From contig NZ_CAJE01000013.1 of assembly GCF_000308215.1 (NCBI RefSeq), positions 1-64,000 of the forward strand: a DNA stretch of 64,000 bases, given 5' to 3'. Below, one piece after another: positions 22,886 through 36,558 of this stretch. A model generated the notes under the pieces. It worked only from the letters and a program-made list of their open reading frames with translations. It ran no database searches and had not been told where the DNA came from. The translations under genes and the position numbers were made by a program. Source of the DNA: Methanomassiliicoccus luminyensis B10. Lineage in GTDB: Archaea > Thermoplasmatota > Thermoplasmata > Methanomassiliicoccales > Methanomassiliicoccaceae. Position 1 is the first letter of the stretch. Every line of letters begins with the position of its first letter.

Positions 22886-23905
22886 ATCATTTCATCAAAG
22901 GAACTTGTCCAGGCGGCCGTAAGGAGAGAGGAAGTGGACAGGGTGCCCGTGGCCCCGCCATTCCAGGGATACTGGGCCCTCGCTTTGGCAGGCGTCAAGG
23001 TGAAGGAGTCCATCGATAATCCGATCAGAGCGGCCAGAGCTCAGATACAGGCGGTGGGGGCGTGCGGCTTCGATGCCATGGGGGTCATGTGGGACTGGCT
23101 GGCGCCGGCCGAGGCCCTTGGTTGCGAGGTGAAAGTACCGGAGCATGGCACCATAATGACCTGGACCCCCGTCGTGGAGGACCGTAGCTCCCTGGACCGG
23201 CTGAGGATACCGGACCCCGGAGAGGATTACCGTCTGAAGGCGGCTTTCGAGACCTCCGAGCTCCTCATTAACGAGCTGGGAAAGGAAAAGTATCTGATGG
23301 CGTCGCTCGCTGCCCCCTTCACCCTGGCCGGGGAGCTGCGCGGCGTGGGGAAACTGATGATGGACACCATACTGGACCCTGACATGGCCAGGGACGTCAT
23401 CAACTTCTCCACGGAAACGACCATAGTGTACCTGGAAGAAATGGTCAAAAAGGACATCGACGCGATAATCCTGTCCGACCCCACCGCTTCGGGGGCCCTG
23501 GTCTCCAAGGAGGACTTCGGAAGGTTCTCCCAGCCGTACCTGAAGGAGTGCGGCAAAAGGATCAAGAACTCCGGGAAGCACTTCATCGTACACATATGCG
23601 GGGATACCGGCGACCGCTTGGAACATGTAGCGGACGTTGGAGCGGATGTCTTCTCTGTCGACTACCAGCTCGACATCGCCACGGCGATGAGGGCCCTCGG
23701 GTCCAGGCAGGCCATACTGGGGAACGTCAAGCCGGCCCAGACCCTGCTTGGCGGGACTCCGGAGGACGTCCGGCGGGAATCTCTGGAATGCATCCAGAAA
23801 GGAGGGAGGAGAGGGTTCATCCTCGGCGCAGGCTGCGACATTGCATTGGGCACCCCGCTGGAGAACGTGCGGGTGTGGCATGACGTAGTGAGGCGGGCCA
23901 GATAA
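22886..23905 (+). CDS. UroD-fold methyltransferase of the MtaA/MtbA type
   Basis: A protein of about 339 residues of the uroporphyrinogen decarboxylase superfamily, methylcobamide:CoM methyltransferase branch. The zinc ligand set H-x-C...C is present: VHICGDT (His220, Cys222) and GAGCDIALGTP (Cys301), counted from GTG 22934. Such enzymes move a methyl group from a corrinoid protein to a thiol, normally coenzyme M. GTG 22934 would cut off the conserved N-terminus; in-frame upstream codons read SSKELVQAAVRREEVDRVPV, the family start. No ATG, GTG or TTG opens this stretch; a GGAGGG at 22874-22879 precedes ATC (22886) and ATT (22889) by 6 and 9 bases, so a non-AUG start is inferred. No corrinoid protein gene is adjacent. 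Confidence 0.85.
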   Translation: MISSKELVQAAVRREEVDRVPVAPPFQGYWALALAGVKVKESIDNPIRAARAQIQAVGACGFDAMGVMWDWLAPAEALGCEVKVPEHGTIMTWTPVVEDRSSLDRLRIPDPGEDYRLKAAFETSELLINELGKEKYLMASLAAPFTLAGELRGVGKLMMDTILDPDMARDVINFSTETTIVYLEEMVKKDIDAIILSDPTASGALVSKEDFGRFSQPYLKECGKRIKNSGKHFIVHICGDTGDRLEHVADVGADVFSVDYQLDIATAMRALGSRQAILGNVKPAQTLLGGTPEDVRRESLECIQKGGRRGFILGAGCDIALGTPLENVRVWHDVVRRAR

Positions 23906-31311: not shown

Positions 31312-32415
31312 GTGGCTTCGGAAATGACACCAACGCGGAGAGCGCTCTCCGCAGTATTGGGTGGCAGGGTGGATTATGTCCCTCCTGCCAATCCGCTTGC
31401 TCAGACGACCATGGAGTTGATGAAATTCGCTGATGCGAAGTGGCCAAATGCACACTATGATTCCAAGATGATGGCAGATCTGGCCGCCGCCCCGTTCGAA
31501 GTGTGCGGCATCGAAGCGGCCAGGCCTCAATTCGATATTTCGCTGGAAGCGGAGGTCCTGGGCTGCAAGCTGGATTGGAACAAGCCTGACCGGCCGCCGG
31601 TCACAGGTCCGGCCTATACCGATCCCAAAGATATCACCTGGCCAGACAATCTCGAGGAGACGGGACGGATCCCCGTTGTCCTCGGCGCCATCGACATATT
31701 GAGGAAGCGCTACGACGGAAACCTTCCCATAATTCCCGTGCTAACGGCCCCGTTCACCGTGGCGGGGCACATAGCAGGGGTGGAGAACCTGGTGATGATG
31801 ACCGTGACCGATCCAGACAAGGCGCACAAGTTCATCTCCGCCGCCACCGACTTCTGCATCGAGTACGGCAGGCTGCAGACCGCTTACGGGGCCCACATCC
31901 TCTTCCCCGCTGACCCGTCTGCCTCGGGGGACCTCATCTCCGGTGAGACGTACAAGGAATTCGTCCTGCCCTACCATCAGAAGATGGCGTCCAGCATCAG
32001 CTGCCCCCAGATCCTGCACATCTGCGGGAACACCAGGGCGCTGCTGCCATACATCCGGGAGAGCAATCTTGACTGCTTCTCCTTCGACAACGTGCCCGCC
32101 TGGTACGTGCGCAAGGCCCTGGGGAACAGGATGTCCATCTTGGGCAGCCTTGACGTCATCGACCTGATGCCCAACGGCACCCCGGAGCAGGTGTACGCCC
32201 GCACCGTGGAGTGTATAAAGCAGGGCGTGGACGTGGTCGGCTCCGCCTGTGACGTATCCTATGGCACCCCCTTGGAGAACCTGAAGGCATACGTCAGGGC
32301 GTGCAGGGAAACACCCATCCCGGACTACGATGACATCGAGGACATGGTCCGCGAGATCGGCGCCGGCAAGGCTCGCCAGATGAAGACAGAGAGCGTGGGG
32401 GGCAGCATTCAATGA
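31312..32415 (+). CDS. UroD-fold corrinoid methyltransferase (MtaA/MtbA type), operon gene 1
   Basis: A 367-residue protein of the uroporphyrinogen decarboxylase/MtaA superfamily. The zinc-thiolate set is intact: LHICGNT (His236, Cys238) and [11 protein letters not shown] (Cys313). In MtaA/MtbA this zinc activates coenzyme M for attack on a methylated corrinoid. The start is GTG 31312 with GGGAGG at 31299-31304. The stop overlaps the corrinoid gene start by four bases, so it is translated in step with it; this tight pairing suggests the two proteins are cognate. Whether it delivers methyl groups to CoM or takes them from an unknown substrate cannot be decided from sequence. It is clearly diverged from the paralogue at 22886. 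Confidence 0.9.
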
Positions 32416-33245
32416 CGAGGCACTTGGGCCTGCTGGCGGAAGAGATGCTGGAGATGAGAACGAAAGACCCGGAGAGGTACCGGCGGCTTATCAACGAAGG
32501 CATGCTGGCCGAGCTTGGATACAATGCATCGAACAGGTCCTCCAAACAAGCCAGCATCGATGATATTAGGAACAAACACCGCCCCCGGGAGGCATCCTAC
32601 GCGGCGATCTCTGATGCGGTCATCTCCGGCAAAAGGCAGCGGGTGAAGGAGCTCGTGGAGGCCTCTCTAAAGCAGGGAAAAGACCCTGTGAACCTGGTAA
32701 CGAACGCCCTCATGCCCGGCATCCAGACGCTCTGCGAGCTGTATGATCAGGGGAAAGCATTCGTGCCGGAAATCCTCATGTCCAACGATGCCATGCTGGG
32801 CGGCATATCCCTTTGCCAGGACAAGCTCGGCGATGTACCCAGGAAGGGCAAGGTAGCGACGTTCGTGGCCGAAGGCGATCTGCATGACATCGGCAAGAAC
32901 ATCGTCGTGGCCATCCTCAGGGCCAACGGGTTCGAGGTCATGGACCTGGGGAGGGACGTACCCGTGGCGAAGGTCGTCGCCGCTGCCAAGGAGCATGGCC
33001 TCGATATGATTAGCGGCTCGACATTGATGAGCACCACCAAAAGTGGGCTCAAGAGGACCGCCGAGACGCTGGAGGAAGAGGGGATCAGGGCACCCATCGC
33101 CTGCGGCGGGGCAGCGGTCTCCAAGAACTTCGTGGAGACCTTCGGCCACGCCATATATGGCCGTTCTCCCCTGGATGCCGTGAAGATCGCCACGGAGGTC
33201 TGCTCGGGCAAGGATTGGAAGGAGGTACGGGAAAAGCTCCGTTGA
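32412..33245 (+). CDS. MtaC-like corrinoid (methyl carrier) protein, operon gene 2
   Basis: A 277-residue methyltransferase corrinoid protein. The helical cap domain is about residues 60-145 (AYAAISDAV-type start, [32 protein letters not shown]) and the B12-binding Rossmann domain follows, with the cobalt-ligand motif [10 protein letters not shown] (Asp156-x-His158-x-x-Gly161), then SGSTLMSTT and IACGGAAV. An extra N-terminal extension of about 55 residues resembles the one in methanol-specific MtaC. No mtaB (methanol methyltransferase) is next to it, which is unusual. The protein would carry a methyl group on Co and need reductive repair by the RamA-like protein encoded two genes downstream. 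Confidence 0.92.
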
Positions 33246-33278
33246 ACAAACCCCTTTTTCTTTACGGGAGGTGTCCTC

Positions 33279-34987
33279 ATCAAGCTGGGGATCGACGTCG
33301 GAGGGACCTGTACAGACGGTGTCTTGGTCGAAGACAAGAGCGGAGAGATCGTCAGAAAGGCAAAAGTCCGAACGGTGAAAGGGGACGTAGCGGGGAGCGT
33401 GATGCGGTGCTATTCCGCCCTCCATGTTCCGTCTCCTGCGATACTGTCGAACTTTTGCGTCTCCACCACGCTGGCTACCAATGCCATGGTGGAGGGGACC
33501 GAGAAGGATGTATGCGCGATAAGCATCGGTCTGACCCCCTCCCGATCGGTGGACTATGCGTCAGAGACCTTGGTGATCGCAGGCAGACATGATCCTATGG
33601 GGGAGGAGACGTGTCCCGTCGACATGGATACCCTCAGGTCCAAATTGAACGGCACGAGGATGCGCTCGTTCGCCGTCTCCGGGTACTTTGGATCGAGGAA
33701 CCCCGAGCACGAGAAACTGGTGGCGGAGGAGGTCATCAGGATGCTACCTGGGGCCACGGTAGTTAGAGGGAGCGACCTTGCCGGGACGCTCGGGGCTGAA
33801 GAGAGGCTGTTCCTGGCGGCAAAGAACGCCGAGCTCATGCACCTGATGAGCGCGTTCATAGAGGGTATCGAGGACGCCACTGGTGTCCCTGACACCATCA
33901 CTTACGCATTGAGGGGGGATGGAACCCTTGTGTCGACCGAGGAGGCGCGCCTGCGGCCGATATTTACCGTCCTTTCCGGCCCAGCCGCGAGCGCGATGGG
34001 AGCGACCGCGCTTGCTGGGACCAGGGACGCTCTGGTCATTGACATCGGAGGGACCACCACGGACGTCGCCGTGGTGAGGAAAGGGAGGGTGAGGATCGCT
34101 TCAGAGGGAGCGCGAGTAGGAGGGTCCCGCCTCAGGACAGGATCGCTGGACCTTCGCACCATAGCACTGGGAGGCGATACGGAGATCTTCTGCGAGGACG
34201 GGCGCGCGATGCTGGGCTCACGGGCGGTCCAGCCACTGTGCCTCGCCCCTGACGCCAATGCGATGCTTCGGGACCGCTCGTTCCTTTATCAGGATAATGA
34301 GCGTACCGTCGGCATCACTCCCACCGACCTCTTCCGCGACCAGGGTAAGAGCGATTTTGGGGATGCGGCGATCGCTCGGGCCGCCCTTGAGGCTCTGGCA
34401 AGGGTGTGCGAACGGCCCATCGCCTCCCTTCGCGCTGACATCGAAGAGATGATCCGCGCCAGGCTGTTGAGGGTCGTCCTGAGCGCAGCCTTGGGCAAGG
34501 ACCTGCCGGAGGGGTCAGATGACCTTATAAAAGGCGGCGGGCTCCTAAGCACGAAGTTTACCATCGCCCTACCAATTGTTGGCATAGGGGCGCCGGTCCG
34601 CAATTTTCTAGACCTAATTGCCGAACGGGTGTGCTCAGAAATCATCATTCCCCATGATCATGATGTGGGGAACGCTGTCGGGGCCGTCAGCACCGGCGTC
34701 TACGGCAGGAAGGATGTTATCGTCAGGAGCGAGGTTAAGTACGTCGATGGGGACGAGGAGCGGTTCTTTCATGTCACCACTGAGGAGGGGTGCGGGTCTT
34801 CCGCGACAAGGACGAGGCCGTCGCCTTCGCCTCCGACATAGGCAAAGCCGCCCTGTGCGATTATATGGATCGAAGCAGAGTGAGAAGATACGATCTAGTC
34901 ACGGAAACAAGAGAGGTAACATATCTGGAACATGACCAAGAGAACCATGTGGAAACGGTGGTGACCATAACGGCGGAGGGAGCTTGA
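33279..34987 (+). CDS. Hydantoinase/oxoprolinase-family ATPase, operon gene 3, frameshifted near the 3' end
   Basis: ASKHA-fold protein of the hydantoinase A/oxoprolinase family. Its N-terminus KLGIDVGGTCTDGVLVEDKSG (phosphate-1 motif) begins upstream of the first usual start codon (TTG 33324); a GGGAGGTG lies five bases before an in-frame ATC at 33279, so an AUC start is inferred. The second nucleotide motif is ALVIDIGGTTTDVAVV. Frame 1 runs to a TAG at 34839; the conserved end (VRVFRDKDEAVAFASDIGKA and on to VVTITAEGA) is in the -1 frame from 34790 to 34987. Shifting -1 inside the GGGG at 34787-34790 joins them into about 569 residues. This may be a sequencing or real deletion of one G, or programmed frameshifting. 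Role unknown; its place suggests corrinoid activation. Confidence 0.8.
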
Positions 34988-36558
34988 CGCACGCGATATC
35001 GTTGGACATCGGTACGAGCGGGTTAAGGGGGCAATTGCTTGACCTGCAGCGCAAGAAGGTCCTGCGGACGTTCATCCTCTCTCGCAACCCGCTCCCCGGC
35101 GCCAATGTCATGGACCACCTTAGCTTTGCCATAGAACAGGGTCAGGAACTGGCCCACGGGATCATGGCGCAGGCCGTGGAGCAGGTGGTCGATATGCTTG
35201 CGCCGGTGGATCTGGAGAGGGTCGCCGTTTGCGGCAACCCGATCCAGCTCTCCATCTTCGAGGGGATCGAGATCAGGGACCTGGCTTATGCCGGGAAAAA
35301 CCTCCTGGCATCCAGCGGCGTGGCGGCCCCGGACCGAAAGGGGCACGTGATCCGGGGGGATGCCGTCGGCCTGAGCGTTGATGTCGATGTCATCATTCCG
35401 CCTTCGGTGAGGCACGAGGTAGGCGCGGACGCTCTGGCCATGATGATCAAATCGGGGTTTCTGTCCGATGATGTGTGCATGGTAACGGACTACGGCACCA
35501 ACGCGGAGATGGCCCTGAAGGTCGGCGACGACATCTTCAGTGGATCGGCCGCTGCGGGACCGGCCATGGAGGGACAGCACATCCAGGCAGGCTTGCTTGC
35601 ATCCCCGGGAGCTATCAGCGATCTGGTGCAGACCTCAGAAGGCTGGCGGACCATGGTGTTGAACGAGGCGTTCGAACCGCAGACAGGCTCCATGGTGAGC
35701 TTGAGAGGCGACACATGCAAGTGTCAGGGCCTGAAGGCCAGAGGCATCACCGGCACGGGGGTGATGGCCCTAATTTATGCCGGCATGCAGTGCGAGAGGA
35801 TACACCCTCCCCGCATCACCGGCGGGGAGATCCGCCTGGACAGAAGGATAAGGTTCACTGAGCAGGACCTCAATGAAGCTGGCAAAGCAATCGGAGCGAT
35901 ACGTGCGGGGCAATTGACCCTGCTCCATGAGGCGGGCATAGGGTCCGATGAACTGCAGAGGATGTACATGGCCGGGGCCAGCGGAACATATGTGGACGCC
36001 GTGAAGGCCCGCTCGATAGGGCTGGTGCCGGCCAAAGTCCGGAACATCGTACAGATCGGCAATACCTCTCTTGAGCTGGCCAAAGACCTTGCCCTCGAGC
36101 CCGATCTGATCGACGAGCTGAACACTATGAGCGCAGACCTGGCTTCCCACCACGTCATGTTCGCATCATCCGCAACGTTTTCCGGCATATATGTCCAGGA
36201 ATTGGGGTACTGGACCGAAGGAATGCCGTGGGAGACCTATCTAAGCAACATTGCCGCAATGGGGATATCGATACCGGGAGGGTCCGATGCCGATGTGACG
36301 GTGGAGAAGCGCCACCGCACCGATATTTGGGACATCGGCGGCTCATTGAAGATGATGGAGCCCGACGTGCACCTGAGGGGAAGCTGGGATTGCGCACGCT
36401 GCCTTCTCTGCATGCGAGCTTGTCCGGAGAACGCGCTATCCGCATCCGACGGTGATTTCACGGTTGATTCAGGAAGGTGCCTTGGTACTGCCTGCCGGAG
36501 GTGTGAGGAGGCTTGCCCGGACAGCGTGTTCCATTATAGACGATTGGTCCTCAAGTAA
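34984..36558 (+). CDS. RamA-like corrinoid activation ATPase with ferredoxin tail, operon gene 4
   Basis: A 524-residue reductive activator of corrinoid proteins. The N-terminal ASKHA part (ISLDIGTSGLRGQLLDL; VTDYGTNAEMALKVGDDIFSG; GITGTGVMALIYAG) is the DUF4445/RACo-type ATPase that couples ATP to reduction of Co(II) to Co(I). The C-terminus holds two 4Fe-4S motifs: Cys470, 473, 476, 480 (CARCLLCMRACP) and Cys499, 504, 507, 511 (CLGTACRRCEEACP), as in RamA of methanogens. The TTG start at 34984 overlaps the stop of the preceding gene and follows GGCGGAGGGAG. It is expected to act on the corrinoid protein of gene 2. Confidence 0.9.
   Translation: MTHAISLDIGTSGLRGQLLDLQRKKVLRTFILSRNPLPGANVMDHLSFAIEQGQELAHGIMAQAVEQVVDMLAPVDLERVAVCGNPIQLSIFEGIEIRDLAYAGKNLLASSGVAAPDRKGHVIRGDAVGLSVDVDVIIPPSVRHEVGADALAMMIKSGFLSDDVCMVTDYGTNAEMALKVGDDIFSGSAAAGPAMEGQHIQAGLLASPGAISDLVQTSEGWRTMVLNEAFEPQTGSMVSLRGDTCKCQGLKARGITGTGVMALIYAGMQCERIHPPRITGGEIRLDRRIRFTEQDLNEAGKAIGAIRAGQLTLLHEAGIGSDELQRMYMAGASGTYVDAVKARSIGLVPAKVRNIVQIGNTSLELAKDLALEPDLIDELNTMSADLASHHVMFASSATFSGIYVQELGYWTEGMPWETYLSNIAAMGISIPGGSDADVTVEKRHRTDIWDIGGSLKMMEPDVHLRGSWDCARCLLCMRACPENALSASDGDFTVDSGRCLGTACRRCEEACPDSVFHYRRLVLK

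Follow-up and report, generated by a model that had tools for sequence, protein, structure and literature searches.

Methanomassiliicoccus luminyensis B10 harbours four consecutive genes on the plus strand at positions 31312-36558 of the window, which is the whole stretch of 64,000 nucleotides that was analysed (contig 13, NZ_CAJE01000013.1, positions 1 to 64,000; the genome searched comprises 2,620,233 bp in 26 contigs). They encode a UroD-type protein, a corrinoid protein, a hydantoinase-like ATPase (Hyd) and a RamA-type protein (Table 1), in the order given by an earlier sequence-only reading. That reading also placed start/stop overlaps at two of the three junctions. The ATGA overlap between the genes of the UroD protein and the corrinoid protein is unambiguous, whereas the one between hyd and ramA exists only when a frameshift is read through. 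The module is adjoined by pyrG and by genes encoding an ATP-grasp-like protein and a TRAM-like protein, the last recognised by eye; a hidden substrate methyltransferase next to the module was therefore rejected. Neither mtaB nor a gene for a pyrrolysine enzyme adjoins the module, as previously noticed. Another URO-D family protein is encoded 7.4 kb upstream (window positions 22895-23896, plus strand), and scores 199 bits with the MtaA/CmuA model, below the cut-off.

Table 1. Predicted features of the four-gene module of M. luminyensis B10 (positions in the window).
Feature	Position	Strand	Characteristics
Predicted MtsA-type UroD-fold methyltransferase	31312..32415	+	367 aa, 40.2 kDa; GTG start; zinc ligands H236/C238/C313
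Predicted MtsB-type corrinoid protein	32412..33245	+	277 aa, 30.2 kDa; ATGA overlap with UroD gene
HyuA-like, HyuB-less ASKHA ATPase (Hyd)	~33279..34987	+	Hydant_A_N and Hydantoinase_A; ~570 aa in relatives
RamA-type reductive activator	34984..36558	+	524 aa; TTG start; two C-terminal 4Fe-4S motifs

The UroD protein passes the subfamily model of MtaA and CmuA (TIGR01463) with 465 bits, at a cut-off of 235. H236, C238 and C313 are invariant in the alignment with MtaA, in agreement with the intact His-x-Cys...Cys zinc site read earlier from the sequence. The identity to MtaA is 33%, and MtsA, MtaA and MtbA are mutually only about 30% identical (PMC10418091). The protein fails the equivalog models of both MtaA (NF040654; 263.4 bits, cut-off 400) and MtbA (NF041608; 212.6 bits, cut-off 600). 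Among the named genomes scanned, relatives were found in many Methanosarcina (75-82% identity), in Methanimicrococcus (73-76%) and also in Methanomassiliicoccales. In a maximum-likelihood tree, the protein and all these relatives group together with 100/100 support, separate from MtaA and MtbA. Based on the equivalog cut-offs and the tree, identity as a plain MtaA or MtbA was rejected.

The Methanosarcina genome G159, which we take to be M. barkeri-like, possesses six URO-D genes, comprising three MtaA (489-514 bits, cut-off 400), one MtbA (625 bits, cut-off 600) and two members of the clade of the UroD protein. Both clade genes overlap the gene of a corrinoid protein of 275 aa and 29.6-29.7 kDa, and a RamA gene comes after the tandem pairs. 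The window pair is 80% (UroD) and 54% (corrinoid protein) identical to that of G159. By elimination in this genome and by the tree, the UroD protein is placed in the same clade as M. barkeri MtsA, apart from MtaA and MtbA; gene identity and orthology are based on the clade and on this elimination. M. barkeri MtsA and MtsB have masses of 41 kDa and 30 kDa (PMC7374477), and those of the window pair (40.2 kDa and 30.2 kDa) fit them. Elimination, molecular mass and synteny together point to an MtsA/MtsB pair, in a comparison set in which no sequence was labelled as MtsA. MtsA is said, in the title of a 2001 paper by Tallant, Paul and Krzycki, to catalyse both half-reactions, so that no separate substrate methyltransferase (MT1) is expected. 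The sequence-only reading had described the module as having no known substrate methyltransferase and, as one option, had guessed that the UroD protein itself takes the methyl group. If the pair is MtsA/MtsB, the guess gains support and the description no longer holds; mtsAB had already been reported for the M. luminyensis genome by Borrel et al. in 2014 (PMC4153887).

Similar to known MtsAB systems, the gene of a UroD-fold zinc methyltransferase of about 41 kDa overlaps that of a 30-kDa corrinoid protein, and no separate substrate methyltransferase is present. Unlike them, Methanomassiliicoccaceae possess an ATPase gene between mtsB and ramA, and the operon adjoins pyrG. The same genome encodes a second MtsA/MtsB-type pair (C12 ~549293-551236; L042:4294-6236, minus strand), without RamA or ATPase, which shares 81% and 60% identity with that of the module. 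The locus is very probably an MtsAB-type methylthiol:coenzyme M methyltransferase operon with RamA repair and a lineage-specific accessory ATPase, for which the reactions, the substrate class and the role of the ATPase are predicted. With this assignment, a module that seemed to lack a pathway would belong to a named branch, the formation of methane from methylated sulfur compounds, of which this archaeon of the human gut carries two copies. The MtsAB machinery itself is already known, and the odd part is the ATPase insertion in Methanomassiliicoccaceae.

The corrinoid protein possesses B12-binding and B12-binding_2 domains, and its DLHDIG corresponds to the DxHxxG B12 motif previously described as intact. 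It remains below the MtaC cut-offs (225 vs 420). RamA passes TIGR04270 with 681.6 bits (cut-off 500), has RACo_C_ter and Raco_middle domains, and carries the two 4Fe-4S motifs expected from the first reading, CARCLLCMRACP and CLGTACRRCEEACP. It shares with the RamA/RACE corrinoid activators the RACo middle and C-terminal ASKHA domains and the C-terminal 4Fe-4S motifs, but is encoded with an MtsAB pair and not with methylamine methyltransferases. In Methanosarcina, genes 55-57% identical to RamA usually also come after the mtsAB-type pair. The earlier description of the module, in which a UroD-type enzyme with its own corrinoid protein is combined with RamA and a second ASKHA ATPase for corrinoid methyl transfer, was confirmed.

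In the proposed mechanism, MtsA would demethylate a methylated thiol or thioether and load the methyl group onto MtsB at Co(I), and the zinc site of MtsA would then pass it from methyl-Co(III) to coenzyme M. The RamA-type protein would use ATP to restore MtsB that has been adventitiously oxidised to Co(II). Hyd would be a dispensable accessory specific to Methanomassiliicoccaceae, in which its gene was inserted between mtsB and ramA; since no HyuB partner exists, it would most likely work on the corrinoid-protein cycle and not as a hydantoinase.

The question of the real substrate of MtsAB in M. luminyensis is made concrete by this assignment. Two reports count against the MtsAB reading. Dimethylsulfide is reportedly not used by Methanomethylophilus alvi, for which mtsAB homologues are described (PMC10673518), and growth on methyl sulfides is not known for any isolate of the order (PMC10805028). 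The case of M. alvi would suit MtsAB-like machinery that has been repurposed in Methanomassiliicoccales for another or undescribed methyl donor, such as methylmercaptopropionate, a methylated selenide or a non-sulfur compound. The second UroD-corrinoid protein pair at C12:549-551 kb (81% identical) suggests divergent substrates, and the extra ATPase was gained only in Methanomassiliicoccaceae. Nevertheless, at an identity of 75-82% to the Methanosarcina proteins of the MtsA clade, a new active site is hardly to be expected, and we regard such a change of donor as conceivable but rather unlikely. A methylated thiol or thioether is retained as the predicted donor.

The conserved synteny that had been proposed as a check was found. 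The UroD and corrinoid protein genes occur together in 40 out of 40 named loci of the clade, RamA comes next in 28, and Hyd is present in five, all of them in Methanomassiliicoccus-type genomes. The same gene order is kept in many genomes, which excludes a chance arrangement. In the search of the order, the UroD protein of the module was detected in nine Methanomassiliicoccaceae genomes, and all nine possess Hyd, in a shortened form in G022. Genome G017 has no RamA at the module locus. Loci of Methanomethylophilaceae have the order UroD-corrinoid protein-RamA or UroD-corrinoid protein, and Hyd is absent from the Methanomethylophilaceae and Methanosarcina loci of the clade. A complete genome of 1.66 Mb from the other family (G077), examined with regard to the M. 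alvi genes, yielded no close match to the clade. As Hyd is restricted to loci of Methanomassiliicoccaceae, the core consists of MtsA, MtsB and RamA, and Hyd represents an insertion. The ATPase, which the earlier reading counted among the four genes of the module, is not part of the core: it is absent from the loci outside this family, shortened in one relative and lesioned in the window.

The expected start codon of hyd is ATC (33279-33281), seven bases after the GGAGG of a well-placed ribosome-binding site, GGGAGGTG. A one-base frameshift is located in a GGGG run near 34787-34791 and ends the frame at 34841, leaving about 140 bases to ramA. Past the frameshift, the shifted frame still matches the relatives as far as its stop codon, and this stop overlaps with the start of RamA. 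This conservation suggests that the lesion arose by recent mutation or is an artefact of assembly. Hyd passes the cut-offs of PF05378 and PF01968 (Hydant_A_N and Hydantoinase_A), and intact orthologues of 572 aa, 55-60% identical to the window protein, are present in the family. It diverges fastest of the four genes (55-60% identity vs 88-92% for UroD). In G022, an in-frame internal deletion of 200 residues has eliminated the second phosphate loop of Hyd, whereas the genes of UroD, the corrinoid protein and RamA are intact.

The non-ATG start, the frameshift, the deletion in G022 and the fast divergence are features of a neutral passenger that is being lost. However, seven relatives keep Hyd at full length over a long divergence, with intact motifs including both phosphate loops, the shifted frame of the window gene is still conserved to its stop, and related HyuA-like genes recur beside corrinoid genes. 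Hyd as a neutral passenger is a conceivable but rather unlikely explanation, and an accessory of the corrinoid-protein cycle is the role that we favour.

The predicted structure of Hyd has a mean pLDDT of 76.5, and the model matches the ATP subunits of N-methylhydantoinase, acetone carboxylase and caprolactamase, with TM-scores of 0.60-0.67 on the query. Similar to HyuA and to the acetone carboxylase and caprolactamase subunits, Hyd possesses Hydant_A_N and Hydantoinase_A domains, the ASKHA phosphate loops and the predicted fold. It differs from them in being shorter (572 aa), in the absence of HyuB from the genome, and in its linkage to corrinoid methyltransferase genes, and it forms a long-stemmed clade of its own. 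HyuA-like genes were found in 130 out of the 147 genomes of the order. HyuB (PF02538) has no match in the genome of M. luminyensis and none in 146 out of the 147 genomes; a classical hydantoinase activity of Hyd was rejected on these grounds. Phosphorylation of the methylated substrate by Hyd before demethylation, comparable to the activation by the ATP subunits of acetone carboxylase and caprolactamase, would be in agreement with the fold and with the two phosphate loops kept in intact relatives. This seems unlikely, as a HyuB-type catalytic partner is missing from this genome and from 146 out of the 147 genomes, other families have the same MtsAB-RamA core without Hyd, and the motifs are lost in G022, where the other three genes are intact.

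A role of Hyd in the corrinoid-protein cycle was considered in the context of the other HyuA-like genes of the order. Among 25 such genes in 20 regions around HyuA-like genes, seventeen are at most 5 kb away from a UroD or corrinoid gene, and nine at most 1 kb. In 400 kb of arbitrary regions of the same genomes, a control with few random positions, about 2% of the positions lie within 5 kb of such a gene. The linkage makes an accessory role of HyuA-like proteins in corrinoid methyl transfer plausible but unproven. The statistical association of HyuB-less hydantoinase-like ATPases with corrinoid methyltransferase genes, seen across the order, is new, and names a candidate for a not yet described ATP-dependent step. 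More speculatively, and with a low probability, the HyuB-less HyuA-like ASKHA proteins of Methanomassiliicoccales might serve corrinoid methyltransferases as a second, RamA-independent set of ATP-driven maintenance factors (reactivases or chaperones). They would have been recruited to UroD/corrinoid pairs on several occasions, of which this MtsAB operon would be one. A recurrent gene order in the order is corrinoid protein, UroD, a small zinc-ribbon protein (by eye) and HyuA.

Hydantoinase-family genes near corrinoid methyltransferase genes are also known from other systems. Maps of bacterial glycine-betaine corrinoid clusters include HydA genes (PMC9768040), and the M. acetivorans hydantoinases MA4395/4396 are located downstream of mtsF-mtaCB2 (PMC11619418). 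Unlike the module, those clusters involve other methyltransferase families and other gene orders. No report of a hydantoinase inside an mtsAB operon was found in the open-licence literature. The nearest bacterial HyuA relatives, on rhizobial plasmids, adjoin unrelated genes. A cluster of a corrinoid protein, a divergent UroD and a HyuB-less HyuA-like ATPase is conserved across Methanomassiliicoccales (L048:4046-9711 in M. luminyensis C15, L228, L235 and L240), and in relatives also includes a small zinc-ribbon-like protein.

The genome of M. luminyensis B10 possesses fifteen URO-D genes and three mtaB genes, the latter located elsewhere than the module and each beside its own corrinoid gene. 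The first reading had named a plain MtaA paired with a distant mtaB as the finding that would remove the novelty of the module. Although the UroD protein belongs to the MtaA/CmuA family with its zinc site kept, and mtaB genes are present, it is very improbable that it serves as the organism's plain coenzyme M methylase for methanol, because it scores far below the MtaA cut-off and lies outside the MtaA clade, its partner is not MtaC by curated cut-offs, each mtaB has its own corrinoid gene, more MtaA/MtbA-like URO-D genes exist at C12:119449 and C13:88961, and many genomes of the order lack the clade of the UroD protein. The UroD protein was not equated with the mtaA of Kroninger 2017 (PMC5688252), a paper that gives accessions only; their rough numbering points to contig 13, without distinguishing among three genes.

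Further UroD genes were observed in other contexts. MtsA-like proteins of a sister clade, with about 50% identity and no adjoining corrinoid gene, are encoded in Methanimicrococcus (L155:7887-11473, Candidatus Methanimicrococcus labiotermitis; L205); a HyuA-like gene comes after one copy, and another has an in-frame TAA. A UroD gene beside an MFS-transporter-like gene (by eye) was found in L044 (C13:84000-95000) and in L103 (G036). This arrangement resembles mtpA-mtpP of M. acetivorans, and in G036 the pair directly adjoins the mtsAB-ramA genes.
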